Assembly (NCBI GenBank): GCA_018716725.1
Contig: DVJP01000010.1
Coordinates: 1-64,000, forward strand
DNA from: Candidatus Merdivicinus excrementipullorum
GTDB lineage: Bacteria; Bacillota; Clostridia; Oscillospirales; Ruminococcaceae
Reading direction: 5' to 3'
DNA: 64,000 bases
Part shown: piece after piece, positions 16,990 through 41,521 of the stretch
How the letters are laid out: each line of letters begins with the position of its first letter
Position numbering within the stretch: position 1 is the first letter of the stretch
Made by a program: the position numbers and the translations under genes
Notes under the pieces: generated by a model
Database searches by the model: none
What the model was told of the DNA's origin: nothing
What the model saw: only the letters and a program-made list of their open reading frames with translations

Positions 16990-18414
16990 ATGGCATCTAA
17001 GTCATATGAAAGGAATACACGGCTCTACCTGCTGGGAATCTTAACGGCGGTGGAGCTGCTGATGTCCTTTTCTTTTCTGGGATACCTGCATGTCGAACCT
17101 ATTTCCATCACCATTGCCTATATTCCCGTTCTGCTGGCAGGCGCCTTAGTAGGCCTGCCGGAGGCCGTGATCCTGGGGACAGTGTTTGGCCTGGCCAGTA
17201 TGTGGAAAGCCGGCGCCAGCTATGTAATGCCTACCGACCAGCTGTTTTCCCCTTTTATGAGCGGACGCCCGATGGAGAGCGTCTTGCTGAGCGTAGGCGC
17301 TCGTATGCTTTTTGGATTGCTGACCGGTCTTTTATACCTGGCAGCCAAGCGCCTGCCGTATACAGGGGCGTGGCTTTGCGTTGTTTCCTTTTTTGGAAAA
17401 TTTCTTCATTCTCTGCTGGTATACAGCGCTATGGGGCTCTTTTTTCCGGAAGCGGGCTACAGCGTACGCAATGCGCTGGACTCCTTTGTCAGCTTGAACG
17501 ACGTCGTTACCAATTTGGTTACTGCCGGGATTGTCTTTCTGTTTTGGAAATTGGAAAAGTCCCGTTTTTGGCAGGAGTACCGAATCCGGATGGAAAAGGC
17601 GCAAAAATTGCAGATAGAGGGGCATTATCACCGGCTGTCGATGGCAGCGATCCTTCTGCTGACCGTCGGCCTGACCCTGGCCATAGCCGTCTATTTTGTC
17701 CACCGGATGGATTATGCCCTGGAAGCGGGCGGGGTTGTTTTGAGCGATACGAACTATTCCGATTTAGTACACCTGCAGATTCAGTTTGTCATCGGCGCCC
17801 TCTCCATGATGGCGCTGGTTATCGTGTTTCTGATATTTAACCGCCGAAACTCCGTCTACATGTATTACGAAGCAAAAATTGACGCCCTCACCGGCCTGAC
17901 AACTAGGAAGGCTTTTTTCGAGGCTTGCACCAAGGTTTTGCAGAACAGCCGGACCGGCAGGGAGGAATGCGGCTATTTTATCATGGTGGATGTAGACCGG
18001 TTTAAGGAGATAAACGACCAGTACGGGCATCCCGAGGGCGACCGGATTCTGCGGGAAGCGGCCAGCGCCCTGCAGGAAACTTTTGGCCGGGAAGGCTTAG
18101 TAGGCCGGGTTGGCGGCGACGAGTTTGCAGTGCTGTTGGATATGTCCGTCTCCCGGGAACGCCTAGAGGCAATTTTCTCGCTTTTTTTAAAACGGATTCA
18201 TAAAATCGAGATTGAGGACAGCCAGATCTCGTGCAGTATAGGGGCTGTTCCTCTTCACGCCGATAAGCCCGTAGACGCCCTTTACCGGGAGGCCGACCGA
18301 ATGCTGTACAGCGCAAAACGGCAGGGACGCGACCGGTTTGTATTGCTGGATCACTCCGGCGAGATGGCCATTATTGAAGGGGAGCATGTTCAGCGGGAAA
18401 AACTGAAAGGCTGA
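16990..18414 (+). CDS. Membrane diguanylate cyclase with ECF-S-like sensor domain
   Basis: 474 residues. The first 190 are about six membrane helices whose sequence (for example TIAYIPVLLAGALVGLP) resembles the substrate-binding S component of ECF vitamin transporters; another helix pair spans about 215-300. A GGDEF domain follows (about 305-460) with intact GGDEF at 375-379, so it should condense two GTP into c-di-GMP. No RxxD inhibitory site is present at the usual position. The fusion suggests the enzyme is controlled by a small ligand bound in the membrane (inference). Own promoter; precedes the second cyclase and the polysaccharide operon. Confidence 0.88.
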   Translation: MASKSYERNTRLYLLGILTAVELLMSFSFLGYLHVEPISITIAYIPVLLAGALVGLPEAVILGTVFGLASMWKAGASYVMPTDQLFSPFMSGRPMESVLLSVGARMLFGLLTGLLYLAAKRLPYTGAWLCVVSFFGKFLHSLLVYSAMGLFFPEAGYSVRNALDSFVSLNDVVTNLVTAGIVFLFWKLEKSRFWQEYRIRMEKAQKLQIEGHYHRLSMAAILLLTVGLTLAIAVYFVHRMDYALEAGGVVLSDTNYSDLVHLQIQFVIGALSMMALVIVFLIFNRRNSVYMYYEAKIDALTGLTTRKAFFEACTKVLQNSRTGREECGYFIMVDVDRFKEINDQYGHPEGDRILREAASALQETFGREGLVGRVGGDEFAVLLDMSVSRERLEAIFSLFLKRIHKIEIEDSQISCSIGAVPLHADKPVDALYREADRMLYSAKRQGRDRFVLLDHSGEMAIIEGEHVQREKLKG

Positions 18415-18489: not shown

Positions 18490-18518
18490 TTGCAATATAA
18501 GCAGTTCCATGGTATAAT
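18490..18518 (+). promoter_or_regulatory. Promoter of the PAS-GGDEF gene
   Basis: TTGCAA (18490-18495), 17-base spacer, TATAAT (18513-18518). Confidence 0.75.
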
Positions 18519-18545
18519 TACTATGAAATTAATTGTGAAAAGGGG

Positions 18546-18647
18546 TGACAAGAGTTTTTCTTTGTCAACTGGCAAAACTTATAGACATATCATAAACGGC
18601 AGATATGCTTTCCCCATTTTATGGGAAAGGCGTATTTATTCATGTCT
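18546..18647 (+). ncRNA. Candidate structured 5' leader RNA
   Basis: A hairpin at 18546-18567 is followed by a two-level structure: an outer 6-bp stem (18583-18588/18642-18647) enclosing a long hairpin of two 6-bp segments (18603-18608/18630-18635 and 18609-18614/18623-18628). The joining segment between the outer and inner stems (18589-18602) is unpaired and AT-rich. No known riboswitch consensus was recognised. It sits in the mRNA of a diguanylate cyclase. Pairing is seen by eye only. Confidence 0.3.
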
Positions 18648-18748
18648 TTATGGCGTAATTATTATATTGCGCATAAACGCGCTCCTCCTGCCGTAAATTG
18701 CAGACGATTCAATCGATAAGTTATCAATGAGAGGTTCTATTAAGAAGT

Positions 18749-20296
18749 GTGATGATAAAGTTTAATATAAAAAAGGATTTGTTAAACACAAATTTTGTGG
18801 AGAAATCCGTTTCCATCAATCGAATAGTTTTGCGTGCCGCAGCGGTTTTTACAGTAATCGTGGAACTGATCAATATGGCCCGCGTTCTCCTGCTGTCAAA
18901 TTCAGGGTTGGGGACGCTTAATAACCGCATTTATTTCAGTTTCTACCTTGTATATTTTATAACAAGTGCGGCGTTCCTTTTGATCGATTTCTGCCTGAAG
19001 CTTTCCAGCAGAATAAGGTATTATATCTATTTGATAAGCGCAGGCGTAATACTGCTGTGGCATACGCTTTTTAATATGTACGATATCCACCGGTCAGATG
19101 CGGTGGGGAATTTTACAATTATTACGGCGATGGCAGTCTTTTGTTCCCTTTTTGTCATGAAACCGGGTTATGCATTGGCTGCCATGGGCGGCAGTTATAT
19201 CCTGTTTGTTTTGTTTTTGGGAATGAACTTCAGCTCCGGAGAGGTAATCAATTTTACGATTACAGCTTCGCTCTGCTTGCTTGTTTACTTTGTGCGCTAT
19301 AAACATTTATATATCGAGCTGACCCAGGCAAAATTACTTAACGATATCCGGCAGGAATTGTCGGAAACGCAGCGGAATTTTCGGCTGTCCATAGAGCAAT
19401 ATGAACTGATCCGGGAAAGAGACAATTATGTGACCTTTGAATGGGATGTAAATGCCGACAGAATCCGTTTTTCAGAAGAGTGGAACGAGTGGTTTAACGA
19501 GCCGAAAGATATTCCGCACTTTAAAAAGTTTATCCGCGAAATTAAAACGGTGAAGCCGGAGCAAAAAGAAATCCTGTTAAAGTGCTTGGAAGGCATAAAA
19601 AATGGAATCCCTTTTCAGAAAACCGAATTGCAGCTGCCGCTGAAAACCGGTGAAAAGGCCTGGTTCGAGCTGCGGGTGATTACTCAGACAAACGATCAGA
19701 ATAAACCGGTATTCGGTATCGGTATGCTTTCAGATATTACCGATCAGAAAGAGAAAATTTTCCAGCTGGAACAGGAAATACAAATAGACCTTTTTACCGG
19801 CCTGTTGAATAAAGCCGCTATTGAGCATTATGGGGAAAGAACGCTGGCAAAACTGCAAAAAGGGGAAATCCTGGCCGCATTAATTCTGGATATGGACGAT
19901 TTCAAGGATATCAACGACCGCTTTGGGCATCCGGCAGGGGACTATGTTTTGAAAGAAGTCGCCGATATTATACAGCGGAAAGCGCCTGTGGGGGCGAAAG
20001 TGGGGCGTATAGGCGGAGATGAATTTATGGTTCTGCTGTTGACGGACAGTTTGACCCCCTTGAGAGATTATGCAGGCGAATTGATACAGGAGGTATCCCG
20101 TATCCGATGGAAAGGGAAAGATGTGGGAGTTAGCTGCAGCATAGGCATATCGGCGGAGGATTCCAGCCAACGGACGTATCCAGAGCTGTATAAGGCTGCG
20201 GACGACGCTTTGTATCAGGCCAAGCGCAGGGGGAAAAACCAGGCTTGGTGTCAAGGGAAACATTGTCAGGAAAAAATTTACCTTGACAAGAAATAA
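18749..20296 (+). CDS. Membrane diguanylate cyclase with PAS and GGDEF domains
   Basis: 515 residues from GTG 18749 (ATG three bases later is equally possible; the ribosome-binding site is weak). About six helices in residues 25-190, a short coiled linker, a PAS-like domain (about 225-335, ending FGIGMLSDITDQKEK) and a GGDEF domain with intact motif at 422-426 (RIGGDEF) and D-M-D-D-F-K-D-I-N upstream. Should make c-di-GMP. No RxxD inhibitory site at the usual position. Its stop is 11 bases from the c-di-GMP riboswitch that controls the next operon, so the signal maker and the RNA sensor are physically adjacent and may share a transcript. Confidence 0.9.
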   Translation: MMIKFNIKKDLLNTNFVEKSVSINRIVLRAAAVFTVIVELINMARVLLLSNSGLGTLNNRIYFSFYLVYFITSAAFLLIDFCLKLSSRIRYYIYLISAGVILLWHTLFNMYDIHRSDAVGNFTIITAMAVFCSLFVMKPGYALAAMGGSYILFVLFLGMNFSSGEVINFTITASLCLLVYFVRYKHLYIELTQAKLLNDIRQELSETQRNFRLSIEQYELIRERDNYVTFEWDVNADRIRFSEEWNEWFNEPKDIPHFKKFIREIKTVKPEQKEILLKCLEGIKNGIPFQKTELQLPLKTGEKAWFELRVITQTNDQNKPVFGIGMLSDITDQKEKIFQLEQEIQIDLFTGLLNKAAIEHYGERTLAKLQKGEILAALILDMDDFKDINDRFGHPAGDYVLKEVADIIQRKAPVGAKVGRIGGDEFMVLLLTDSLTPLRDYAGELIQEVSRIRWKGKDVGVSCSIGISAEDSSQRTYPELYKAADDALYQAKRRGKNQAWCQGKHCQEKIYLDKK

Positions 20297-20307
20297 TTTT
20301 GTAAGAA

Positions 20308-20377
20308 CATATTTAGAGGCAAAGCCGTTGAAAGACGGCGACGCAAAGCTGTGAGTCTACGGCAGAAAACTGCTATG
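20308..20377 (+). ncRNA. c-di-GMP class I riboswitch (GEMM-I) aptamer
   Basis: Carries the family hallmarks: AGGCAAA (20317-20323), hairpin GCCGT-TGAAAG-ACGGC (20324-20339) with a GAAA-type loop, the invariant GACGCAAAGC (20340-20349), and a second hairpin GCAG-AAAA-CTGC (20362-20373). A short closing pair CATA/TATG (20308-20311/20374-20377) can be drawn, and 20282-20287 can also pair with 20381-20386. A rho-independent terminator follows at 20384-20437. It precedes a ten-gene exopolysaccharide-type operon, so c-di-GMP level should set whether RNA polymerase reads through. Whether ligand turns it on or off cannot be read reliably. Confidence 0.88.
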
Positions 20378-20383
20378 ATCGTC

Positions 20384-20437
20384 AAGCTGCAAAGACCTTC
20401 CGTGTAAACCGCACGAAAGATTTTTGCAGCTTTTTTT
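20384..20437 (+). terminator. Riboswitch-controlled intrinsic terminator
   Basis: Perfect 10-bp stem (20384-20393 with 20423-20432) and a T-run from 20431 to 20437, directly after the aptamer and 15 bases before the first gene of the operon. Confidence 0.85.
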
Positions 20438-20452
20438 ATTAGGGGTGTTGAA

Positions 20453-21148
20453 GTGAACGAGGTATATCGGCAGGAAAAAAAGTATTTTATGACCTTGGTA
20501 AATATGCGGAATCTTTCCGGCCTGCTGGAACCGGTTATGATTCCGGACGCGCACAACGGTTCGCAGGGATACCGCATCCGTTCCCTGTATTTTGATACGA
20601 TTCACGAAAAGGACTACGAGGACAAAATAGACGGGCTGGAAATCCGGCGCAAAATCCGCCTGCGTATTTACGATCCGGCCGCCGATTTCGCCATGTTGGA
20701 GATGAAGCAAAAAGAGGGCGGTTATCAGAAAAAGCGTTCTCTCCGTTTAAGCAGGCGGGATGCGCAGCAGATTGTGCAGGGGCGTTATGACAGCCTTTTA
20801 CAATACAACGACCCATTTGCAGCAGAGTGCTGTGGGCTAATGCACTGGCAGTGTTACCGTCCAAAGACGATTGTGGAATATAACCGCCAGGCATATATCG
20901 CCAAGGAAAACAAGATACGGGTTACTTTGGATTATGAAATCCGGGCAACGGAAACGAATCTGGATTTGTTTTGCCCCGTGTTGAATCTGTACCCTGTGCT
21001 GGATCCTTTCAACGGCGTCCTGGAGGTCAAATATAACGGCTTTTTACTCAGCTATATCAAAAATCTTGTAAATGCGGCGAATCGTTCGGAATTGTCTGTC
21101 AGCAAATACTGCCTGGCGAGGAGCGCAAGTATGAAATTCGGATTCTGA
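20453..21148 (+). CDS. VTC-domain (polyphosphate polymerase-like) protein
   Basis: 231 residues, GTG start with AGGGG upstream. Shows the VTC/triphosphate-tunnel features: an N-terminal E-K-K-Y, R-S-L-Y-F-D-T, K-I-R-L-R-I-Y, E-M-K-Q-K and K-Y-C pattern of basic and acidic strands lining a tunnel. Family members bind or make polyphosphate, but bacterial stand-alone forms next to DUF4956 and CotH-like genes are not clearly characterised to my knowledge. First gene after the riboswitch. Could supply a phosphate-rich cofactor or modify the polymer; this is inference. Assignment to the superfamily is firm, activity is not. Confidence 0.85.
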   Translation: MNEVYRQEKKYFMTLVNMRNLSGLLEPVMIPDAHNGSQGYRIRSLYFDTIHEKDYEDKIDGLEIRRKIRLRIYDPAADFAMLEMKQKEGGYQKKRSLRLSRRDAQQIVQGRYDSLLQYNDPFAAECCGLMHWQCYRPKTIVEYNRQAYIAKENKIRVTLDYEIRATETNLDLFCPVLNLYPVLDPFNGVLEVKYNGFLLSYIKNLVNAANRSELSVSKYCLARSASMKFGF

Positions 21149-21163
21149 AAGGAGTATTTGAAA

Positions 21164-21859
21164 ATGAGAAGATTGTTGTTGGAGATGTTTGAGAGCACAG
21201 GCCAGCTGGATCCTCAGACGATTGTCCTGCGAATGATTGTAGCAACGATTATTGCGTTTTTCATTTACCTATCGTATAAGCTGTCTCATGAGGGCAGCAT
21301 TTACAGTAAAAAATTTAATGTGTCGTTGATGGCGCTGACGGTGATTACAACTGCGGTAATGATTGTAATCGGAAATAACATCGCGTTGTCTCTCGGCATG
21401 GTGGGCGCGCTGTCTATTGTCCGTTTCCGGACGGCGATTAAGGATTCGCGGGATACGATTTACATCTTCTGGACGATTGTAGCGGGTATTTGCTGCGGAG
21501 CCGGCGATTTTTTGGTTGCTGCCGTCGGCAGCGCGTTTGCTTTTTTGGTCCTGCTGATATTTGGGCGGATTAAAAATGATAACCGCATGCTGCTGATTAT
21601 ACGGGCCGCCAGGATAAACGAAGAAAAAATTGAAGCGCTGATCTTCCAGCGTTTTTCGCGCAAGGCCAATTTGAGAGTGAAAAATACCACCGACACCAGC
21701 GTGGAATTTATTTATGAAATCAGCAAACACCTGCTGGAACGCGCGGAAAAATCGAAAAAAGGAATCGTTCAATCAAAAAGCGTTACCGATGCCCTGTATG
21801 AAATCGGCAGCGTCGAGTACTGCAACCTAGTTATGCAGAATGATGAAATCAGCAGTTGA
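21164..21859 (+). CDS. DUF4956 membrane protein
   Basis: About 231 residues with four membrane helices in the first 135 (helices near 25-42, 58-78, 82-100 and 105-130), including a conserved-looking S-L-G-M-V-G-A-L-S-I-V-R-F-R-T loop, and a soluble C-terminal half. Matches DUF4956, a family routinely found beside VTC and CotH-like genes. Function unknown. ATG at 21164 with GGAG ten bases upstream is preferred over the in-frame TTG at 21158. Possibly a channel or scaffold for the VTC-like partner. Confidence 0.85.
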   Translation: MRRLLLEMFESTGQLDPQTIVLRMIVATIIAFFIYLSYKLSHEGSIYSKKFNVSLMALTVITTAVMIVIGNNIALSLGMVGALSIVRFRTAIKDSRDTIYIFWTIVAGICCGAGDFLVAAVGSAFAFLVLLIFGRIKNDNRMLLIIRAARINEEKIEALIFQRFSRKANLRVKNTTDTSVEFIYEISKHLLERAEKSKKGIVQSKSVTDALYEIGSVEYCNLVMQNDEISS

Positions 21860-21887
21860 TTTTGCCGTATAAAAGGAGGCGGATGGG

Positions 21888-23387
21888 ATGAAATACCGGC
21901 TGATAGGGATTGTTGCAACGTTCTTTTTGCTGGCTGCTGCATTTGTTGCCACCGCATTTGATAACGAAAATCCCAATAACCGCGTTCACCAGCACTTGAC
22001 CGCCCGCCAGCCGGACGCGGGATGTTCGTGCGATGGCGAAGAGCTGTGCACACATCTTCCCCTTGTAGTGATTGAAACGGACGGGCAGGTAATACCTGGC
22101 GAGCCTCTGTCGGCGGACGGCACGTTTCTGGAACAAAACGAGTCCGTAGATTATGAATATGAAAATGTGACGTTAGCAGAAGACGGCAGTACGACCATTG
22201 CGTGCCAAGTGCGGATTATGGACTCTGAAAGCGCCAACCATCATCTAACAGACCAGCCGTCTTTGGAGCTGAATGCGCGCATCCGGATCCGCGGCAATAC
22301 CTCCCGGCTGTTTGATAAAAAAGGCTATCTTTTAAAGATAACAGAAGAAGACGGCGTTACCAATAAAGATGTTGGAATCATGGGGATGAGCGCGCATCAT
22401 GAATGGGCGCTCCATGGCCCGTATCTGGATAAGTCGCTGATTAGGAACTACATGTGGTACAATATTGCCGGGGAAATTATGGATTACGCTCCCAATGTGC
22501 GTTTTTGCGAAATTGTAATCAATGGCGAATATCAAGGGCTTTATGTGATGACTGAAACCATCACCAACGGGGAGAATGCCAGGCTAAAAATGAGTATGCC
22601 GGAAGACGGCCAAAGTGCGGTGAGTTACGTTATCCGTCTGGACCGGGGCAGCTCGAATCCCATTAAAAATATTGAAACTTTTACGATGTACGCGCTGCGG
22701 AACAAATGGATTATTGACATTGCCTATCCCGGCACAGACAACTTGATCCAGGACCGCATTGACTATATTTCCCAAGAATTTTCAGATTTTGAAAAGAGCC
22801 TATATTCCTACGATTATGATACGGAACCTTACGCGTGGTGGAACCATGCGGATATAGATTCTTTTGCGGATTACTTTATTATTAATGAATTTACCTGCAA
22901 TTATGACGTAGGCGCTCGTTCCACATACATCTATAAAGATATCCGGGGAAAATATCAAATGTGTATTTGGGATATGAACTCCTCGTGCGACAATTTCCAT
23001 TTTAGTCAAATTGAGCCGCAGAGGTTCCAAATGCAGTATATTACCTGGTTTTATATGCTGATGAAGGACGAAAATTTTACTCAGCATGTCATTGACCGCT
23101 ACCGGGGACTTCGGGAAAGTTATCTCAGCGAAGAATACCTCCTTTCCTACATCGACGATGTAGTGGAGTACCTTGGCCCGGCTATTGAACGGAATTTCCA
23201 GGTATGGGGATATTCATTTGACGATTATGTCCCCCTTTCCCCGGCGGAGCGGAACCCTGAAAACCATGAGGCAGCCGTGGCGCAGCTCAAAGACTTTATC
23301 AAAGTGCGCGGCGAATGGATGGACGAACACATCGAGATTCTGCGGCAGTACAGCCATGAATCGAAAAACAAGAAATTTAACCATTGA
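21888..23387 (+). CDS. Secreted CotH-like protein kinase
   Basis: 499 residues with an N-terminal hydrophobic signal (residues 3-24). Contains CotH-fold landmarks: R-I-R-G-N-T-S-R (133-140), a lysine pair at 145-146 and K150, S-L-I-R-N-Y-M-W-Y-N, Y-Q-G-L-Y-V-M-T-E, F-I-I-N-E-F-T-C-N-Y-D (330-340) and I-W-D-M-N (360-364). Spore-coat CotH uses ATP to phosphorylate proteins; the second Asp of the usual WDxD motif is Asn here (N364), which may lower or change activity. Acts outside the membrane if the signal is used. Strong AAGGAGG site. Part of the polysaccharide operon. Confidence 0.85.
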   Translation: MKYRLIGIVATFFLLAAAFVATAFDNENPNNRVHQHLTARQPDAGCSCDGEELCTHLPLVVIETDGQVIPGEPLSADGTFLEQNESVDYEYENVTLAEDGSTTIACQVRIMDSESANHHLTDQPSLELNARIRIRGNTSRLFDKKGYLLKITEEDGVTNKDVGIMGMSAHHEWALHGPYLDKSLIRNYMWYNIAGEIMDYAPNVRFCEIVINGEYQGLYVMTETITNGENARLKMSMPEDGQSAVSYVIRLDRGSSNPIKNIETFTMYALRNKWIIDIAYPGTDNLIQDRIDYISQEFSDFEKSLYSYDYDTEPYAWWNHADIDSFADYFIINEFTCNYDVGARSTYIYKDIRGKYQMCIWDMNSSCDNFHFSQIEPQRFQMQYITWFYMLMKDENFTQHVIDRYRGLRESYLSEEYLLSYIDDVVEYLGPAIERNFQVWGYSFDDYVPLSPAERNPENHEAAVAQLKDFIKVRGEWMDEHIEILRQYSHESKNKKFNH

Positions 23388-23408
23388 TAGGCAAAGGGGT
23401 TATGTACC

Positions 23409-25547
23409 ATGAAAAAATTTATCATCGCCGCTTGTATTGTGGTACTGCTCATTTTTGCATGGAATTTTTCCTATTATAATCTGGGCATTTATATTGACCT
23501 GCACCCCGACGCGCCTGTTACCGCCTTTATGACGACCGATCAAGACACGATCTATATGGAAAAGGACGGGAAAACCGTACCTTTTGAAATCCGCGGCGTG
23601 AACATGGGAGTCGGCCTTCCGGGAGAATGGGCGACTGATTATGCAATAGATAAAGAAACCTATCTGCGGTGGTTTGCCTGGATTCAGGAAATGGGCGCCA
23701 ATACCATCCGCGTGTATACCATCCTGCACGATGATTTTTACAATGCATTTTACGAATACAATCAAGGCCGTGAAGACCCGCTCTATCTGATCCACGGGGT
23801 ATGGGTCAACGACTATGTGCAAAACTCCCACCGGGATGCTTACGACGATGATTTCCGGCAGACGCTTTTGGATGACTGCCGGACAGTAGTGGATATCCTG
23901 CACGGCCAAAAGAATTTGTCACTGGGATACGGGCTGGGTTCGGGGTCGTACCGAAAGGATGTTTCCCAATGGGTGATCGGCTATATCCTGGGCGTGGAAT
24001 GGGAGGACGTCACCGTTACTTATACCGACCACAAATATCCGGAGCGCAGCTCCTATCAGGGAACTTACATGTATACCACGGAAGATGCTTCTCCTTTTGA
24101 AGCCATGCTGTGCGAAGTCGGCGATAAAATCATCGAGTATGAGTCAAAGCGGTATAAACAGCAGCGGCTGGTGGCTTTTTCCAACTGGCCCACCACCGAC
24201 CCCTTCGACTATCCGGAGGATATTACCCGGTTTTTTATGAAGTGCGCCAAGGTGGATGTAGAGCATATCCGCACAACCGACGCCTTTTTGTCCGGGCATT
24301 TTGCCTCCTACCATGTATACCCGTATTATCCCGACTATCTGAACTATGTGAGCGATAAAAGCGGATTCGTGACAACAGAGGACGGCAAAGTCAATACCTA
24401 TCAGACTTACCTGAAACGTTTGACCGAGTATCATACCATTCCGGTTGTCATTTCTGAATACGGCGTGTCTACCGGCCGGGGTATGGCGCAGAGAGACTAT
24501 AATACCGGGCGAAACCAGGGGAACATGTCGGAAAGCGAACAGGGGCAGGCGATTATCCAATGCTATGAGGATATCATGGCGGCAGGATGCGCCGGGAGCT
24601 GCGTATTCACTTGGCAGGATGAATGGTTCAAACGCACATGGAACACCATGCATGCTGTCGACCTTGAAAATACGCCCTACTGGAGCGACTATCAGACCAA
24701 TGAACAATATTTTGGCTTGCTGGCCTTTGACCCGGGCAAAGAAAAGAGCGTCAGCTATACGGACGGGGACCTTTCTGAATGGAAGGAAAACGATCTTGTC
24801 ATTCAAAGCCGGGAGATGTCGGTTTCCATGAAATATGACGAAAAATTCCTGTATTTTCTGATCTATAAGGAAGGGTTTAACTCGGAATCCGATACGCTGT
24901 ATCTTCCCATTGACACGACCCCTAAAACCGGAAGCACCTATTGCGAAAATCTGAAGCTTTCCTTTGAACGCGCAAGTGATTTCTTAATTGTAATCGACGG
25001 CCAGGAAAACAGCCGCGTGCTGGTGCAGGAACGTTATGAAGTGCTGCGGGCAATGTATTTGCATGAAACGGAAGACAGGGACGCCTACATTGAGCCGGTG
25101 GAAAAGGATACGCCGGCGTTTAAGCCGATTCACCTTATGTTACAGACCGCTACGCCGCTGCTGACAGGGAACTGGCAGGCCACCAGCGAAACTTATGAAA
25201 CCGGCAAGCTCACCTACGGGAATGCCAACCCGGAAGCAGAGGAATTTAGCTCCCTGGCGGATTTTATCTTTTCAGGCGACTATATTGAACTGAAAATTCC
25301 GTGGCAGCTTCTCAACTTTGCAAACCCCTCGGAAATGAAAATCCACGACGATTATTATGAAAATTACGGGGTGGAATATATACAGATCGATGAGATGCAT
25401 ATTGGAATCGCGGACGAAAAAAGCGCGGCATACCGCATCCCGATGGAGGCTTTTTCCCTGGAGGGCTGGGGAAAAACGGTGACCTACCATGAACGGCTGA
25501 AAGAGTCCTATTACATGCTGAAAGACTACTGGGCGAAAGCAGAATAG
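23409..25547 (+). CDS. Membrane-anchored (beta/alpha)8 glycosidase with C-terminal CBM9/DOMON-like domain
   Basis: 712 residues. One N-terminal helix (4-21) anchors it outside the cell. Residues about 50-430 form a TIM-barrel enzyme related to GH2/GH5-type clans, with acidic candidates in G-V-E-W-E near 197 and in V-I-S-E-Y-G near 352. The C-terminal region from about 455 (D-G-D-L-S-E-W) is a beta-sandwich resembling CBM9/DOMON. In a polymer-export operon such an enzyme often trims or releases the nascent chain (as cellulase BcsZ does for cellulose; established for that system). Its specific linkage is unknown. Confidence 0.75.
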   Translation: MKKFIIAACIVVLLIFAWNFSYYNLGIYIDLHPDAPVTAFMTTDQDTIYMEKDGKTVPFEIRGVNMGVGLPGEWATDYAIDKETYLRWFAWIQEMGANTIRVYTILHDDFYNAFYEYNQGREDPLYLIHGVWVNDYVQNSHRDAYDDDFRQTLLDDCRTVVDILHGQKNLSLGYGLGSGSYRKDVSQWVIGYILGVEWEDVTVTYTDHKYPERSSYQGTYMYTTEDASPFEAMLCEVGDKIIEYESKRYKQQRLVAFSNWPTTDPFDYPEDITRFFMKCAKVDVEHIRTTDAFLSGHFASYHVYPYYPDYLNYVSDKSGFVTTEDGKVNTYQTYLKRLTEYHTIPVVISEYGVSTGRGMAQRDYNTGRNQGNMSESEQGQAIIQCYEDIMAAGCAGSCVFTWQDEWFKRTWNTMHAVDLENTPYWSDYQTNEQYFGLLAFDPGKEKSVSYTDGDLSEWKENDLVIQSREMSVSMKYDEKFLYFLIYKEGFNSESDTLYLPIDTTPKTGSTYCENLKLSFERASDFLIVIDGQENSRVLVQERYEVLRAMYLHETEDRDAYIEPVEKDTPAFKPIHLMLQTATPLLTGNWQATSETYETGKLTYGNANPEAEEFSSLADFIFSGDYIELKIPWQLLNFANPSEMKIHDDYYENYGVEYIQIDEMHIGIADEKSAAYRIPMEAFSLEGWGKTVTYHERLKESYYMLKDYWAKAE

Positions 25548-25578
25548 CACGCTGGCGCCAGCGGAAAGGAGGATGGCT

Positions 25579-26688
25579 GTGAGAATAGAAATCATGATCT
25601 ATATTTACGGCGCGGTATGTCTGAGCATGATTGGGTTTAATATCCTATACAATCTGCTTTTAAAACGCCGTGAACCGCGGCTGGAAAGGCGGCGCCGGAA
25701 AATCAAAAGGCAGGTGAAGGCGCAGCTTGACGCCATCCGGGATGGCAAATCCGTTGATCCGAAACATCTGCGCTACTTGCGGAACAGTCTGCGCCGCCTT
25801 AACAACCTTATCGCTTTTGACCGGGTTTTAAAGCCGCTTTGCGAGGGTACCTATGACGATGCCGCTGCCAAATATTTTCTTCAGATTCAGCCGGTTATTT
25901 TGTATCTGGCGGTCTTATATGATCATCGCAATACCATGCAGGCGGCGTATTTTTCCTTTTTCCTTTCCCGGTATATGGCCAAAAGGCAGCGGCCCATTGA
26001 TTCCATACAGGAGATTCTGCTGGGCTATGTCAAAAAAGAAAACCTGTACTGCTGCGTGAACGCATTGCAGGCGCTGTGCGCTTTTGGCAGCGCCGAACAC
26101 ATTATAAAGGCGTTAAAAATACAGGATCAAAGCAAGGTATTTGTGCATGAAAAAATACTGACGGAAAGCCTGCTTTCTTTTTCAGGGAATCACGACGGCC
26201 TCATACGGCGTTTATGGGAGAATATCGATTCCTATTCAGAACACACGCAGCTGGCAATTCTAAATTATATCCGTTTTCAATCAGACGGCTATCAGGAAGA
26301 GATGTTTGCGGTAATGCAGGATACTAAAAAAGGAAAGGAGCTGAGGCTTGCGGCTATCCGGTATTTTGGAAGGTATTTTTATGCGCCGGCCCTGGAACCG
26401 CTGCTGGCTTTTGCATTAGATAAAGACCTTTCCAATTGGGAATACGCTACGGTCAGCGTCTCCTCGCTGGCACGGTATCCCGGCGGAAGGGTAGTCGATG
26501 CGTTAAAGGAAGCTCTGCACAGCTCTAACTGGTATATCCGCCGGTCCGCATCAATCAGCCTTGAAGCCCACGGAGAAAATTACGGCAGCCTGACGGACGT
26601 TATCGTGGGAAACGACCGGTATGCGCGGGAGATGATGACGTATCGTCTGGAATCCCAAAGGCTGCAGAAAGCAGGTGGAGAATCATGA
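25579..26688 (+). CDS. Membrane-tethered HEAT-repeat protein
   Basis: About 369 residues: one helix (about 5-25), a very basic stretch, then tandem helical pairs of HEAT type (clear repeats around 225-355, for example the R-L-A-A-I-R-Y-F-G and W-Y-I-R-R-S-A-S-I-S-L-E-A-H-G segments). GTG at 25579 is preferred since AAAGGAGG abuts the ATG at 25573, leaving no spacing. It overlaps the GT2 synthase start by four bases (ATGA), so the two are made together. Likely a cytoplasmic scaffold for the synthase (inference). Confidence 0.75.
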   Translation: MRIEIMIYIYGAVCLSMIGFNILYNLLLKRREPRLERRRRKIKRQVKAQLDAIRDGKSVDPKHLRYLRNSLRRLNNLIAFDRVLKPLCEGTYDDAAAKYFLQIQPVILYLAVLYDHRNTMQAAYFSFFLSRYMAKRQRPIDSIQEILLGYVKKENLYCCVNALQALCAFGSAEHIIKALKIQDQSKVFVHEKILTESLLSFSGNHDGLIRRLWENIDSYSEHTQLAILNYIRFQSDGYQEEMFAVMQDTKKGKELRLAAIRYFGRYFYAPALEPLLAFALDKDLSNWEYATVSVSSLARYPGGRVVDALKEALHSSNWYIRRSASISLEAHGENYGSLTDVIVGNDRYAREMMTYRLESQRLQKAGGES

Positions 26689-27854
26689 TGGACGCCTTTA
26701 AGATATTTTTTGACTATGTAGGCGTTTTTTTCATTATCTACATGATCGGTTATGCCAGTTTCCTTTTCCTGTCGGTCACCGTCGGGTCTTCGACGCTCTA
26801 TCAGGTAAAGCGCCGCAACCAGCTGAAAAATGAACTTTTGGGGAAGTATTATGTTCCGGTTACGATTATCGTTCCAGCATATAACGAGGAAGTGACCATT
26901 CAGAGCAGCATCCTCTCCCTGCTGGCGTTGGAATACCCCTTATACGAAATTATTGTTGTGGACGATGGTTCCAGCGACGCCACCTCCCAAATTCTGCGGG
27001 AGGCTTTCCATATGCAGCAGGTAAACTGTCCGATTCAGCGGAAGATACCCTGCCAGCCGGAAGAAGCCATTTTTGAAACCCATGAATTCAAGGTGCCGAT
27101 TACGCTGATCCGAAAGAAAAACGGCGGAAAGGCTGATTCCCTGAACATGGGGATCAACGCGGCCAAATACCCCTATTTTATCTGCATGGACGCGGATTCC
27201 GTTTTGCAGTATAATTCCCTGGAAAAGATTGTGCGGCCGGTGCTTGAAGAGGGAGATGTTGTTGCGGTGGGCGGTGCTGTGCGCCCATGCAACGGCGCGG
27301 AAATTCAAAACGGAAGGGTCGTTTCTTACCATATGCCCAATAAAATCCTTCCCTGTATGCAGGTTCTGGAATATGACCGTTCTTTTCTTGCGGCGAGAAT
27401 CCTATTTGATAAATTTAACGGGAGCCTGATTATTTCCGGGGCGTTTGGGCTTTTTAAAAAGAGCGTCGTCATTGATGCGGGAGGATACGACCCTACTACA
27501 ATGGGCGAGGATATGGAACTGGTGGTTAAGCTGCATGTGTTCTGCCGGGAACACGGCGTCCCCTACCGCATCCGTTATGCGACAGACGCCGTCTGCTGGA
27601 CGCAGGCCCCCGAAAAGCTGAAGGATTTGTGCAAGCAGCGGCAGCGCTGGCACATTGGGTTGTTTCAAACTATGAAGCGGCACCGGAGGATGCTGGCCAA
27701 CCCTAAATATGGATTGGTAGGATTGGTCGCCTATTTATATTTTTTAATCTACGAGCTGCTTTCCCCTTACATTGAGCTATTCGGACTTATAACCGTTGTG
27801 CTGGCCTTTATGGTTGACCTAATCAATGTGCCGTTTATGGTTTTATTTTCCTGA
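26685..27854 (+). CDS. Processive family 2 glycosyltransferase (polysaccharide synthase), frameshifted near the C-terminus
   Basis: 389 residues as read. A membrane helix (about 12-35), GT-A catalytic domain with D-D (93-94), D-A-D (169-171), G-E-D (274-276) and Q-R-Q-R-W (318-322), then membrane helices. These motifs define processive inverting synthases such as those for poly-N-acetylglucosamine, cellulose or hyaluronan; a PilZ domain is absent. The frame stops at 27854, while the -1 frame encodes the expected last membrane helices (27860-28087). One additional T in the T4 run at 27845-27848 would fuse them. Translationally coupled to the HEAT protein. Central enzyme of the operon; product unknown. 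Confidence 0.88.
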   Translation: MMDAFKIFFDYVGVFFIIYMIGYASFLFLSVTVGSSTLYQVKRRNQLKNELLGKYYVPVTIIVPAYNEEVTIQSSILSLLALEYPLYEIIVVDDGSSDATSQILREAFHMQQVNCPIQRKIPCQPEEAIFETHEFKVPITLIRKKNGGKADSLNMGINAAKYPYFICMDADSVLQYNSLEKIVRPVLEEGDVVAVGGAVRPCNGAEIQNGRVVSYHMPNKILPCMQVLEYDRSFLAARILFDKFNGSLIISGAFGLFKKSVVIDAGGYDPTTMGEDMELVVKLHVFCREHGVPYRIRYATDAVCWTQAPEKLKDLCKQRQRWHIGLFQTMKRHRRMLANPKYGLVGLVAYLYFLIYELLSPYIELFGLITVVLAFMVDLINVPFMVLFS

Positions 27855-27859
27855 TTTAT

Positions 27860-28087
27860 GTGGTGTATTCCGCGATTTTATCCTTAACGGCTTTTTTTGC
27901 GCGTATTCATACTGTTGATTTAAACCTGACGGCAGCGGACGTCCTCAAAGCAGTCGGCCTTTGCGTGTTGGAAGTATCCTGCCTGCGCCTGGTCTTAGCT
28001 TTTGTGAGAGCCACCGCGCTAATTGGCTACAGCAAGAAAAAACACGCTTGGGGGAAAATTGAAAGGAAAAAAATCAAATTCAAATAA
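27860..28087 (+). CDS. C-terminal membrane segment of the GT2 synthase (out of frame)
   Basis: 75 residues from the first start codon; the frame is open upstream across the GT2 stop and reads F-L-I-Y-V-V-Y-S-A-I-L. It has two hydrophobic helices and a basic tail with the W-G-K-I-E-R pattern found at the end of IcaA-like synthases. It has no ribosome-binding site of its own. Best explained as the end of the 26685 gene displaced by a one-base deletion or a sequencing error in a T-run. Confidence 0.7.
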   Translation: MVYSAILSLTAFFARIHTVDLNLTAADVLKAVGLCVLEVSCLRLVLAFVRATALIGYSKKKHAWGKIERKKIKFK

Positions 28088-28101
28088 TCGGAGGGTATGT
28101 T

Positions 28102-28614
28102 ATGGAATCAAAAAATTTAAAAAAAGGGTTGTTCGGTTTTCAGCAGGCCAGCGTTTTTCAATACATTTCGGATATTGAAGAAACATTCTCGGCCAAACTC
28201 ATGGAAAAGGATGCGCAGGCCCAAAAAAATGAAGAACAATATCTTTTGAAAATACGGCGGTTAGAGGAAGAACTGAGCGATGTCAGGGAGCAGTTCGAAA
28301 AACAGAAAAACCAGCAGGTGATGATTGCCAACACGCTCCTTGACGCACAGCGCTATGCCGAAACCTTAAAAAAGGAAACGGAAGAAAAAGAGCAGGAAGC
28401 GCGGAGAAAATTGACGGAGCAAATCGAAAGAAAACAGCAGGAAATCAATGCGTACCAGATGCAGATTCAGCAGATTCGGGAGATGTTCCACGCTCTCTTG
28501 AGCAAAATGGATGGGGAAACCCAGGAGCTGGAACAGGATGCGCAAACAGTAAAGGACAATTGCCCCGGCCAGAACATGTCTTTGTTCCTGCGGAGAAACG
28601 AATCGGCAGAATAA
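28102..28614 (+). CDS. Coiled-coil protein, DivIVA-like start
   Basis: 170 residues, cytoplasmic. The opening K-K-G-L-F-G-F-Q-Q-A-S-V-F-Q-Y-I resembles the membrane-binding start of DivIVA/GpsB proteins, and residues about 25-145 are a nearly continuous charged heptad coiled coil. Good GGAGG site. DivIVA-type proteins mark poles or septa, so it might position the synthase; this is inference. Could also simply be a filament-forming accessory protein. Confidence 0.7.
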   Translation: MESKNLKKGLFGFQQASVFQYISDIEETFSAKLMEKDAQAQKNEEQYLLKIRRLEEELSDVREQFEKQKNQQVMIANTLLDAQRYAETLKKETEEKEQEARRKLTEQIERKQQEINAYQMQIQQIREMFHALLSKMDGETQELEQDAQTVKDNCPGQNMSLFLRRNESAE

Positions 28615-28630
28615 AGCGGAAGGAGAAATC

Positions 28631-30439
28631 GTGGAAGAGAAAATACTTATTTATGCCGCTGGAAATCCGGACGCTTATCCCCTTGAATATTATGATGCGG
28701 ATTCGCAGGCCTACCAGGGGATAATCCCGGAATTGTTCCGTGAGTTTTCAGCGCAAAGCCGGTATGAAATCGTTTATTATCAGGCGGGAAAAACGGATCG
28801 CCGGGAACATCTTGCTAAGAATCTGCAGGTGGATATCGTGTCAGGCTACACGGAGGGCGGCGCCATCCCCCCCGGCGTTCAGGCGCTCACGATATTTCAC
28901 ACCACCCAGGCCGGCGAGGACGTCGCTTATCAGCTTTGTTTTACCCAAATAGCCCCGGAAAGCCTGCAGTCCGATTTCAGCAAATTTGTGGAGTCCGTGT
29001 CACAGGAAAAGATAAGCGGCCTTTTAATTACGTCGGCAGAACCGCCGCAAAGTCCGGCCGGTTTTTATTGGGGGATGGGCGCGCTGTCCCTGGCTGTGAT
29101 TGCGCTGCTGTCCGCGATCATCCTGCTTGCCAGACATGATCGAAAGAAGCTGAACAAGGCGCGGCGGGATCTCGAAATCGATGAGACGACAGGGCTTGGC
29201 AATTTTGACTGCCTGGTACGGTATTACAGCCAGTTTATTAACGACAAGAACCGAATCCTTTACAGCCTCGTGTATTTCTATGTGGATACCGACCGGCTGC
29301 GCCGGCTTAGCAGCAGCGAAGAAACGGATGATTTCCTTCGTTACTGTGCGGCGGTATTGCAGGAATATACGGCGGATACCGATATTCTGGCCAAAGTGTC
29401 CGATCATGGCTTCGTCCTGATGAAGCTGACCAGCAATTTGCAGAAGCTGGACGAATGGTTTACGCCGCTTTTTTATCGCATCCGCTCTTATACGGAAAAA
29501 TACGCCAAGCCTTTTGAGGCGGGCGTGACGGCCGGCGTTTATCCGCTGAAAGCGGGGGATAGGGATCTGAACGAAATGATTTTGAGCGCCAGCCAGGCGG
29601 CTTATATGGCTGCGCGGCAGCATGAGGATTATGTGCTTTGCTCCGACCAGATGCTTCAAAAACTTACGGAAGAAAAGCAGCTTCATCTGGATCTTGAACA
29701 GGCCTTTGCCAAAAGCGAATTCCAGCTTTATATCCAGTTTTATGTAGACGCTCATTCCTTCCAAACGGTAGGGGGAGAGGCGCTTTCCCGCTGGAACCAT
29801 CCCCAAAAAGGGGTGTTGACGCCGAATCTTTTTGTCCCTTTGCTGGAACGGGAAAAAATGATCGGCAAACTGGATTATTATTGTCTGAGAAAAGTGTGTG
29901 AGTTTTTGGAAGACCTTGTCAGAAACAAGGTGGAAACGTTCTTTATATCCTGTAATTTTTCCCGCGAAACATTGGCCGCGGCAGATTTTGTAGATAGGTG
30001 TCAAGAAATCATGAACGCGTACCATTTTCCTAGGGAACTGCTGATTTTCGAAATTACAGAAAGCGTTCCGGAAAAAAATATTACGCAGATTAAACGAAAT
30101 CTCATTGCGCTGAAAAAATACGGCGTCCGGATTGTTTTGGATGATTTTGGAGAAGGCTTTACCTCCTTGTATGATTTGCAGAAATATTCGGTGGATGGAA
30201 TCAAGCTGGATAAGGGGCTTATTGAGAATGTTACGGCCGAAAGCGGGAAGGCTATCCTAAAAGCGATGATTCAAGTGGGACATGAGCTTGGCGTTACCAT
30301 TCTGGCCGAGGGCGTTGAAACCGATGAACAGGTACAGGCGTTGCAGGAACTGCGCTGCGACGTTATTCAGGGGTTCCGTTTCTGCCTTCCCTTGCCAGAA
30401 AGGGAGGCGAAAAATAAGGTTTTGGAACAGTTTTTATAG
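28631..30439 (+). CDS. c-di-GMP phosphodiesterase with degenerate GGDEF and intact EAL domains
   Basis: 602 residues from GTG 28631 (GGAAGGAG site). Residues 1-140 look like a shortened family 3 solute-binding sensor without a signal peptide; one helix at 148-167; degenerate GGDEF (S-D-H-G-F at 257-261); EAL domain from about 350. Catalytic residues of active EAL enzymes are all visible: E383 (EAL), N442, E474, D504-D505, K525, E560 and Q580. It should hydrolyse c-di-GMP to pGpG. Encoded under the c-di-GMP riboswitch, so its product would feed back on the signal that controls it. Confidence 0.9.
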   Translation: MEEKILIYAAGNPDAYPLEYYDADSQAYQGIIPELFREFSAQSRYEIVYYQAGKTDRREHLAKNLQVDIVSGYTEGGAIPPGVQALTIFHTTQAGEDVAYQLCFTQIAPESLQSDFSKFVESVSQEKISGLLITSAEPPQSPAGFYWGMGALSLAVIALLSAIILLARHDRKKLNKARRDLEIDETTGLGNFDCLVRYYSQFINDKNRILYSLVYFYVDTDRLRRLSSSEETDDFLRYCAAVLQEYTADTDILAKVSDHGFVLMKLTSNLQKLDEWFTPLFYRIRSYTEKYAKPFEAGVTAGVYPLKAGDRDLNEMILSASQAAYMAARQHEDYVLCSDQMLQKLTEEKQLHLDLEQAFAKSEFQLYIQFYVDAHSFQTVGGEALSRWNHPQKGVLTPNLFVPLLEREKMIGKLDYYCLRKVCEFLEDLVRNKVETFFISCNFSRETLAAADFVDRCQEIMNAYHFPRELLIFEITESVPEKNITQIKRNLIALKKYGVRIVLDDFGEGFTSLYDLQKYSVDGIKLDKGLIENVTAESGKAILKAMIQVGHELGVTILAEGVETDEQVQALQELRCDVIQGFRFCLPLPEREAKNKVLEQFL

Positions 30440-30452
30440 AATGGGGCTTTTT

Positions 30453-30472
30453 GGCGCGGCCCGGTCCGCGCC
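30453..30472 (+). repeat. GC-rich intercistronic hairpin
   Basis: Perfect 7-bp stem (30453-30459 with 30466-30472) in the 112-base gap after the EAL gene. No T-run follows, so it is more likely an mRNA-stability or processing element than a terminator. Confidence 0.5.
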
Positions 30473-30551
30473 TCAACAGCGATTGTTTCTGCCGTTCGTC
30501 TGCTTCTTTGGAAAGGAAAGAAAATGCTTCTGCGGAAGGTGGGGAAAACGC

Positions 30552-31199
30552 GTGATATTTAGAGGGAAAAAGGGTACGGCCAGCTTCAACGATTTGTCCC
30601 TTTACCATCGTCCGGCTTCCCGGGGGAATAAAGGCGGCTTGTTTTTTGGATATTATACCGACACGGATGGCCTGTATGAAAAATTACTCCCGGCGGCGCT
30701 GGATGTCATGGCGGAATTGTCGGAAGGGCGCGCTGTTTTTACGCACATTTACCCACAGAAGATTTTCTTGCGGGAAAAGAACGGATACCGAAAACAGGAG
30801 CTTTCGCCTGGGGCTTTTGATTTTATAAAACTGCCTGTTTTTCAAAAAAACCATTGTGTTTCGGATTCTTCCGGCTCCGTCATAGTACAAAGTCTAGGGA
30901 TAGACGCCGGCCTTTTGCGTGCATTTTACCTGTGGCCCCGGCACATAGCTTTTGAAAATGATGTATACGTGTTCCCGGAGGCCCCTTTTAGGGCAGGTCT
31001 TTCCTATGGAAAACTAGCGGCGGAGTTGAAAAACAGCTGCCCGCGGTTCGTGTTTTCTTATAATGAGTTTCATGTGGGATTGGATATTCAAATCGCTGGT
31101 CGGACACAGTGGGAAGACAGGGCAGTTTCGGTTATACAAAGGACCTGTGAGAAATACTGTTTTCCTCTTGATGTAAATTTATTTCCAGAAGAAGGATAA
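30552..31199 (+). CDS. Protein of unknown function, last gene of the polysaccharide operon
   Basis: About 215 residues, no membrane helix, no signal, no domain I recognise. Contains F-F-G-Y-Y-T-D-T-D-G-L-Y-E and alternating hydrophobic strands. GTG at 30552 is chosen for the AAGGTGGGG just upstream. A 12-codon frame with its own good site (ATG 30524, stop 30560-30562) overlaps this start, so either translation is coupled or another single-base slip separates the true N-terminus. Same strand and operon as the genes above. Confidence 0.6.
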   Translation: MIFRGKKGTASFNDLSLYHRPASRGNKGGLFFGYYTDTDGLYEKLLPAALDVMAELSEGRAVFTHIYPQKIFLREKNGYRKQELSPGAFDFIKLPVFQKNHCVSDSSGSVIVQSLGIDAGLLRAFYLWPRHIAFENDVYVFPEAPFRAGLSYGKLAAELKNSCPRFVFSYNEFHVGLDIQIAGRTQWEDRAVSVIQRTCEKYCFPLDVNLFPEEG

Positions 31200-40641: not shown

Positions 40642-40690
40642 ATTCATCAAGGGCATTTATATGGATTTTTTGGAAATTCGAGGTGATACA

Positions 40691-41521
40691 GTGGATGGCA
40701 TGATAACCGAGATCCAGCGGGGCAGCCTTCATGACGGGCCGGGAATCCGAACCGTTGTGTTTTTGAAAGGCTGCAACCTTCGCTGCGCCTGGTGCCACAA
40801 TCCGGAAACGATTTATCCGGACGAGGAGACTTTGGTTTCTCCGGATAAATGCATTGGATGCGGCCAGTGTGAACAAGGCTGCTTTTCTGGAGCCCGGACA
40901 AAATGCGGGAGCCGGATGACATCCGAGGAGATTTTGCAGGTAATTTTAGAGGACCGGCCGTATTATGGCCCGGATGGGGGCGTTACCATTTCGGGGGGAG
41001 AACCGGTTTTGCAAAGCGATTTTGCGGTGGAACTGCTGGAGGGCTGCCGCCGGCACCATATTCATACGGCCATTGAAACCAATCTCAGCCTGCCGGAACC
41101 CCTTGTGCGGAAGGTTTGCGGGCTGTGCGGCCTGATTATGTGCGATTTAAAAGCCATGGACGAGGGCGTGCACCGGAAATTTACCGGGGCCGGCAACCGG
41201 CAAATCCTTTCTAATCTGAAGAGCGTCAGCCAGCTTGGCATCCCCATGCTGGTGAGGACGCCGGTAGTTTCAGGCATCAATGACAGCCTGGAAGAAATTT
41301 CCGCCATAGCGGAATTTTTGTCATCGCTTTCCAATGTGCAGTACTATGAACTGCTTACATACCATCCTTTGGGGTTATCTAAGCCTGTTTCGGAGCACTT
41401 TCAGCCCCAAGCCTTTGAAAAGCCTTCCAAAGAAAAAATGAGGGCGCTGGCAGCCGCAGCCGCAAGTTTCCATATCCCGGTGAGAATTGATAACGTTGTT
41501 TTTCAGGAGGCGTCAACATGA
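40691..41521 (+). CDS. Glycyl radical enzyme activase (radical SAM)
   Basis: About 276 residues. Early G-S-L-H-D-G-P-G-I-R signature, radical SAM C28-x3-C32-x2-C35 (from the GTG start), and an inserted ferredoxin-like cluster site C-I-G-C-G-Q-C-E-Q-G-C. It uses S-adenosylmethionine to place the radical on the glycine of the partner enzyme encoded next (stop and start overlap as ATGA). GTG at 40691 has GAGGTGAT upstream; an ATG at 40661 is an alternative with a weaker AAGGG site. Only one extra Fe-S cluster motif is seen, fewer than in two-cluster activases. Confidence 0.92.
   Translation: MDGMITEIQRGSLHDGPGIRTVVFLKGCNLRCAWCHNPETIYPDEETLVSPDKCIGCGQCEQGCFSGARTKCGSRMTSEEILQVILEDRPYYGPDGGVTISGGEPVLQSDFAVELLEGCRRHHIHTAIETNLSLPEPLVRKVCGLCGLIMCDLKAMDEGVHRKFTGAGNRQILSNLKSVSQLGIPMLVRTPVVSGINDSLEEISAIAEFLSSLSNVQYYELLTYHPLGLSKPVSEHFQPQAFEKPSKEKMRALAAAAASFHIPVRIDNVVFQEAST

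Follow-up and report, generated by a model that had tools for sequence, protein, structure and literature searches.

The gene set described here is already known from NELoc-2, a locus of necrotic-enteritis strains of Clostridium perfringens in which the genes were annotated as encoding tubulin, spore coat and chitin synthase proteins (Lepp et al. 2010, PMC2879425; PMC11677781). Part of it, the trio of VTC, DUF4956 and CotH genes (cotH-PPP-DUF4956), also accompanies the Pel polysaccharide clusters of Gram-positive bacteria (PMC7112168). In Streptococcus intermedius, deleting the genes for DUF4956 and CotH altered the amount of Pel and aggregation, and the same 2025 study found the trio only at Pel loci (PMC12345266). 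The regulation of polysaccharide synthase systems has been reviewed as acting through direct binding of cyclic diguanylate (c-di-GMP) to proteins (PMC8461298). We analyzed a locus on a 64,000-nt stretch of DNA (the window) of contig DVJP01000010.1 from Candidatus Merdivicinus excrementipullorum (GCA_018716725.1), where the trio, a glycosidase, a HEAT protein and a GT2 synthase are encoded behind a c-di-GMP riboswitch. An initial annotation made from the sequence had given this locus as positions 18490 to 31199 and read it as a self-contained c-di-GMP circuit driving an exopolysaccharide machine. The finding is real and that interpretation is largely right, with the caveats that the synthase frame is broken, that one gene is spurious and that the gene set had already been described. 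In our reading, to which we assign a probability of about three in four, the locus is a c-di-GMP-gated, self-limiting exopolysaccharide operon.

NELoc-2 has the same gene order with similar lengths: VTC, a gene annotated "tubulin/FtsZ" in the position of DUF4956, CotH (497 amino acids), a hypothetical protein of 685 amino acids, HEAT (377 amino acids) and a GT2 "chitin synthase" (466 amino acids), a correspondence based on the gene order and lengths in Table 4 of PMC2879425. Most Quebec strains also have a polysaccharide deacetylase, as do some of the relatives studied here. However, NELoc-2 starts with a sigma/anti-sigma pair and has the VTC/DUF4956 unit in duplicate together with a resolvase, and a riboswitch, cyclase and EAL protein are not reported in that locus. 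The statement in the initial annotation that no characterized polymer is made by this gene set is right as far as function goes, but by sequence the set had been described as NELoc-2. Gram-positive Pel clusters also place the trio beside a polysaccharide synthase, and their bifidobacterial versions have a cyclase/phosphodiesterase protein, but the synthase here is a PgaC- and hyaluronan synthase-like GT2, and a domain search for PelF, PelG, PelD and PelA found none among the ten locus proteins scanned. A Pel system is thereby ruled out, and the loci examined here are a counterexample to the confinement of the trio to Pel loci. A literature search found no description linking the gene set to c-di-GMP riboswitches, of an exchange of riboswitch classes or of the trio with a non-Pel synthase.

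Results

Downstream of the riboswitch, the genes for the VTC, DUF4956, CotH, TIM-barrel glycosidase, HEAT, GT2, DivIVA-like coiled-coil and GGDEF-EAL proteins follow one another with intergenic gaps of -4 to 28 nt across VTC to GT2 and 16 nt ahead of the EAL gene (Table 1). The riboswitch and terminator proposed in the initial annotation were both recovered, the aptamer as a full-length match (1-87) to the RF01051 covariance model at 77.9 bits, where the gathering score is 35, and this is the only GEMM-I copy in the source genome. It starts 11 nt past the stop codon of the cyclase gene DGC2, and the VTC gene begins 58 nt after it. The 5' arm of the terminator is the 3' strand of the aptamer. 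When the leader is folded without constraint, a 12-bp terminator ending in T7 is formed (-43.6 kcal/mol), while enforcing the aptamer (-38.8 kcal/mol) removes the base of the hairpin and leaves a gap of 4 nt to the U tract. The same pairing of the aptamer 3' strand with a downstream hairpin was found in 41 of 41 leaders of the operon family, and 34 of these 41 satisfied a strict terminator rule, compared to 131 of 820 leaders (16%) with shuffled downstream sequence. Because the two structures share this strand, c-di-GMP should turn the operon on, and the mutually exclusive folds in the model suggest that the leader is laid out as an ON switch in vivo.

GEMM-I riboswitches are known with either polarity, and an OFF switch by which c-di-GMP halts transcription of the operon, like that of the Clostridioides difficile flagellar genes, was therefore considered. 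The terminator is whole only once the aptamer is broken, in GEMM-I and GEMM-II leaders alike, and on the basis of this overlap we rejected the OFF switch as very improbable. The cap gene of Bacillus thuringiensis (PMC4933901) and CD2831 of C. difficile are likewise preceded by a c-di-GMP riboswitch and encode surface or biofilm proteins, but the riboswitch here gates a whole polysaccharide operon including the phosphodiesterase.

A profile search of genome contigs with the glycosidase gave at least 500 related loci (L-numbers below denote loci or contigs compared with the window), and the best 80, which we examined, are nearly all from Clostridia, mainly from gut samples. The order VTC-DUF4956-CotH-glycosidase-HEAT-GT2 with the EAL gene behind it is kept in nearly all of them. 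In an even draw of the class Clostridia (391 genomes, 223 genera), the glycosidase was present in 27 genomes from 21 genera. No counterpart of the CotH gene turned up in six further genomes from this genus, indicating that the locus is accessory. A c-di-GMP riboswitch stands shortly before VTC in 42 of the 76 operons with at least 300 nt of upstream sequence, GEMM-I in 38 cases and GEMM-II in 4. In the 50 operon genomes, 27 of the 36 GEMM-I copies stand at this operon, and any GEMM-I was found in 40 of 149 relatives. On the glycosidase tree, GEMM-I is scattered over deep branches, while GEMM-II occurs in two separate places (L114; L056/L066/L067) and needs at least three changes. The use of two unrelated RNA folds with the same ligand at the same site argues for selection for c-di-GMP control. 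The possibility that homologous clusters lack the riboswitch and the cyclases, raised in the initial annotation as one that would undo its claim, was not borne out, with riboswitches at these 42 operons and adjoining cyclases in a subset of the relatives only.

The two membrane cyclases were confirmed to have intact GGDEF active sites (DGC1, 375; DGC2, 422), although DGC1 lies outside the start originally given for the locus. Neither has an RxxD I-site (GREGLVGRV precedes GGDEF in DGC1, and the motif in DGC2 is PVGAKVGRI), and the same is true of the same-strand operon-adjacent cyclases listed in relatives. L060 and L081 have a relative of DGC1 next to VTC on its upstream side (56% and 50% identity, respectively), an orthologue of DGC2 holds the same position as in the window in L044, L045, L046, L051, L053 and L065, and in L084 and L086, which show no riboswitch, a cyclase gene stands immediately before VTC. 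L045 comes from Anaerotignum lactatifermentans An390, whose copy of the operon is intact. The distance from the cyclase stop codon to the aptamer is -1 to 41 nt across the window and the six loci with a DGC2 orthologue. Several loci thus have scant room for a promoter, which points to a single transcript gated internally by the riboswitch, but a promoter-like sequence just ahead of the aptamer in L053 and L065 indicates that co-transcription is not general. The promoter-like site upstream of DGC2 is weak, since a consensus scan of the region found 9 such sites where 6.5 are expected by chance. As the DGC2 gene ends against the riboswitch, the gate most likely lies in, or just before, one transcript, and we infer that DGC2, the riboswitch and the operon are co-transcribed.

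The c-di-GMP inventory of the source genome was made by family searches that covered GGDEF, EAL, HD-GYP, PilZ and GEMM-I. Of the five GGDEF matches, two are DGC1 and DGC2 and a third is the degenerate domain in the EAL protein; the others are a REC-PAS-GGDEF protein (L136:1548-3047, contig 1) that carries an RxxD I-site and GdpP, which is a c-di-AMP enzyme. This leaves three catalytic GGDEF proteins genome-wide, two of them at this locus. The only EAL protein is that of the operon, downstream of the riboswitch as the initial annotation had it, and its remark that the GT2 synthase has no PilZ domain holds for the entire genome in the family search. A single REC-HD-GYP protein is encoded on contig 30 (L152). 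The description of the circuit as self-contained is nearly right at genome scale: the one EAL, the one GEMM-I and two of the three catalytic GGDEF proteins are here and there is no PilZ, but the REC-HD-GYP and REC-GGDEF proteins are encoded elsewhere. Apart from these two, no catalytic c-di-GMP protein was found outside the locus, and they could be a stray response-regulator pair.

The catalytic set of the EAL domain (ERNEDDKEQ) is complete, with E383, N442, E477, D504, D505, K525, E560 and Q580. It is possible, though in our view rather doubtful, that this protein is mainly a membrane receptor or "trigger" for c-di-GMP that acts on the synthase complex by contact, giving dual RNA and protein control. 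A degenerate GGDEF and an EAL domain on a membrane anchor are encoded beside the synthase in nearly all loci, trigger phosphodiesterases are known (PMC5052742), and the riboswitch-less L091, L095, L097 and L111 keep the EAL protein with a decayed site. Against a pure receptor stands the retention of all catalytic residues in 34 of the 35 riboswitch operons scored, which suggests selection for hydrolysis there and favors a phosphodiesterase. In one riboswitch-less clade (L088, L090, L092, L146 and L147 versus L091, L095, L097, L100 and L111), the EAL protein is lost or its catalytic residues have decayed, possibly through a shift from phosphodiesterase to receptor or a loss of c-di-GMP control. 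The EAL protein of the window also has a solute-binding-like N-terminal domain (28631-29100) with one predicted membrane segment and no visible signal peptide.

The GT2 gene was correctly recognized and has its motifs, but a frameshift had been overlooked by which the last 78 residues, conserved in relatives, are lost. The GT2 proteins of relatives have 465 to 475 amino acids and a complete C-terminal transmembrane part, which that of the window lacks. The processive motifs (DD, DxD, (T/G)ED and QxxRW) are all present before the frameshift and are invariant in relatives (D93 D94, D169-A-D171, G274-E-D276 and Q318-R-x-R321-W322). Among the assembled GT2 genes compared, this is the only one broken within a contig, and together with the missing CotH in the six congeneric genomes this could mean that the locus in the source genome is a decaying or inactive accessory island whose circuit drives no polymer. 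We consider this rather unlikely, because the remaining genes are all intact and the out-of-frame segment (27851-28084) still shares 77 to 78% identity with relatives, with mostly synonymous codon changes, indicating that the frameshift arose recently or is a one-base error in the sequence.

The nearest NCBIfam model for the synthase is PgaC_IcaA, at 146 bits against a cut-off of 422, so that a true synthase of poly-N-acetylglucosamine (PNAG) is unsupported. A structure model (pLDDT 65) matched hyaluronan, chitin and cellulose synthases and has a membrane-synthase fold. In 13 related loci (including L094, L096, L098, L105, L107, L109, L113, L148, L072 and L059), a secreted polysaccharide deacetylase (PF01522) is encoded within the operon or next to it, its gene usually lying between those for DUF4956 and CotH. 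Taken together, the motifs, the nearness to PgaC/IcaA, the model and the deacetylase favor a glycan containing N-acetylhexosamine, and with modest confidence we suggest a beta-linked, possibly N-acetylhexosamine, polysaccharide as the product. The PNAG systems (Pga/Ica) resemble these loci in their synthase, in the secreted deacetylase of some relatives and in the surface glycosidase of all, but there is no match here to PgaB, PgaD or IcaD, and the glycosidase and HEAT proteins are unrelated. The clostridial CcsA (PMC7710045) and Bcs systems share a membrane GT2, a cognate glycosidase and c-di-GMP control; CcsA has a PilZ domain, however, and the absence of PilZ here rules out a cellulose/Ccs system.

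The first three genes after the switch have a predicted phosphate chemistry, and the same trio accompanies Pel (PMC7112168, PMC12345266), so the main product might not be a free polysaccharide: VTC, DUF4956 and CotH could equip a surface protein or a polymer of the wall with phosphate or polyphosphate that they make or attach, with GT2 building the carrier glycan. The processive-synthase motifs and fold of GT2 and the deacetylase in the operon of 13 relatives speak against this alternative, which we regard as improbable, and for an exopolysaccharide as the main product.

Table 1. Features of the locus, in window coordinates
Feature	Position	Strand	Evidence
DGC1, membrane diguanylate cyclase	16990-18414	+	Pfam GGDEF 123.9 bits, intact GGDEF
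Promoter-like site TTGCAA-17-TATAAT with TG, upstream of DGC2	18490-18518	+	Consensus scan 10/12
DGC2, membrane PAS-GGDEF diguanylate cyclase	18749-20296	+	Pfam GGDEF 116.3 bits, intact GGDEF
c-di-GMP-I (GEMM-I) riboswitch aptamer	20308-20394	+	RF01051 77.9 bits, E 1.3e-13
Intrinsic terminator, predicted ON-type expression platform	20384-20437	+	5' arm 20384-20393, 3' arm 20423-20432, T7 tract
VTC-domain (polyphosphate-polymerase-like) protein	20453-21148	+	PF09359 140.9 bits
DUF4956 (MgtC-like) membrane protein	21158-21859	+	PF16316 51 bits
Secreted CotH-like kinase	21888-23387	+	PF08757 195.9 bits; weak match to solved CotH 5jd9
Membrane-anchored TIM-barrel glycosidase, C-terminal beta-rich domain	23409-25547	+	Alignment and low-confidence fold
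Membrane-anchored HEAT-repeat protein	25573-26688	+	PF13646 (HEAT_2) 33.2 bits
GT2 processive-type synthase, catalytic part, 389 amino acids	26685-27854	+	GT2 103.3 bits; early stop
Frameshift, T run one base short versus relatives, giving TGA	27843-27854	+	T run near 27843-27850
Synthase C-terminal 78 residues, out of frame	27851-28084	+	77-78% identity to relatives
DivIVA-like coiled-coil protein	28102-28614	+	PF05103 sub-threshold; positional homologues in relatives
Membrane GGDEF (degenerate, SDHGF)-EAL phosphodiesterase	28631-30439	+	PF00563 199.4 bits; GGDEF 31.6 bits
Unconserved open reading frame, ninth gene, best start	30552-31199	+	No relative, no family

The initial annotation had counted nine genes in one operon, and the first eight were confirmed by position and domains. 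The ninth is not conserved: it has no relative in the other loci examined and no Pfam or NCBIfam match, and for these reasons it probably does not belong to the system. The VTC protein is a putative polyphosphate polymerase by its Pfam match. The glycosidase falls just below the threshold for GH72 (24.5 versus 25.9), and its structure model, which is poor (pLDDT 60), shows a clan-A-like barrel resembling GH157, Gel4 (GH72) and GH50. Candidate catalytic acids predicted from the alignment are E197, which is invariant, and the E of an ISEYG motif near residue 350. Neither the glycosidase profile nor VTC found a match in sequence searches against solved structures.

A plasmid of Planococcus maritimus (L153) carries the same six core genes, annotated accordingly except for the glycosidase, which is called "hypothetical", and a Qat anti-phage system lies a few kilobases away; the plasmid search that found this copy found no NELoc-2 of C. 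perfringens. A copy of the operon in Candidatus Aveggerthella (L122, a metagenome-assembled genome of Actinomycetota) reflects horizontal transfer or a binning error. L138, L139, L140, L141 and L143 are distant variants with the glycosidase, HEAT and GT2 genes without the trio, and L140 and L141 have at least two tandem glycosidases with GEMM-I riboswitches nearby. In two relatives from the genus of the source genome that lack the operon, GEMM-I riboswitches (L150:4182-4268 and L151:3557-3643) stand ahead of genes for large repetitive secreted proteins, and the same signal may drive adhesins there. Elsewhere in the window (40661-43671), a predicted glycyl-radical enzyme and its activating enzyme are encoded amid sugar-utilization genes.

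Discussion

We propose that DGC2, and probably also DGC1, make c-di-GMP, both lacking the I-site by which many cyclases shut themselves off, and that the gate stands between the cyclase gene upstream and the whole machinery downstream. When c-di-GMP is absent, the nascent RNA would form the 12-bp terminator by using the aptamer 3' strand, and transcription would stop; when c-di-GMP is bound, the aptamer would keep this strand, the hairpin would end 4 nt short of the U tract and the polymerase would continue. GT2 would then act as a processive synthase of the PgaC/hyaluronan/chitin synthase type together with the surface glycosidase, the secreted CotH kinase would work with its VTC and DUF4956 partners, and the HEAT and DivIVA-like proteins may serve assembly or placement. 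The genome's only EAL phosphodiesterase, made from behind the gate, would bring c-di-GMP down again. Since this protein lowers c-di-GMP, polymer synthesis should be a bounded pulse, and a negative feedback through the EAL protein of the operon is likely.

Several observations weigh against this scheme. No recognized riboswitch precedes 34 of the 76 operons, and c-di-GMP control is at most putative there; an Rfam scan of the sequence ahead of 13 of them gave no further regulatory RNA, and inspection of riboswitch-less operon fronts by eye revealed no common motif and no sigma/anti-sigma pair. In the source genome, the REC-HD-GYP and REC-GGDEF proteins can also alter c-di-GMP, and the frameshifted synthase may be inactive. 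The 12-bp terminator might still form co-transcriptionally. Finally, the association between the riboswitch and EAL activity (Fisher P = 7.6e-5) comes mainly from one clade and is not significant in independent pairs, making this co-variation a hint only.

A broader and more tentative proposal, which we would not yet expect to hold in full, is that gut Clostridia share a widespread exopolysaccharide system whose synthesis responds to c-di-GMP solely through the RNA gate and not through a PilZ-type site, forming a pulse generator in one locus. The VTC-DUF4956-CotH trio would then be a portable phosphate-chemistry module for glycans of unrelated synthases (Pel and this GT2), yielding an undescribed phosphorylated surface polymer.

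In conclusion, four points are new: the gating by RNA, the exchange between riboswitch classes, the near confinement of c-di-GMP signaling to a single locus and the occurrence of the trio away from Pel, the last showing that these three genes are not restricted to one type of polysaccharide cluster. The RNA gating of an operon conserved across a class of gut bacteria differs from the protein binding described for synthase systems, and the two unrelated riboswitch classes in the same position are strong natural evidence for selected c-di-GMP-ON control. Since the genome has few other c-di-GMP parts, the locus offers a minimal, testable signaling circuit. For NELoc-2 of C. perfringens, it also suggests a likely function and a hypothesis on regulation.

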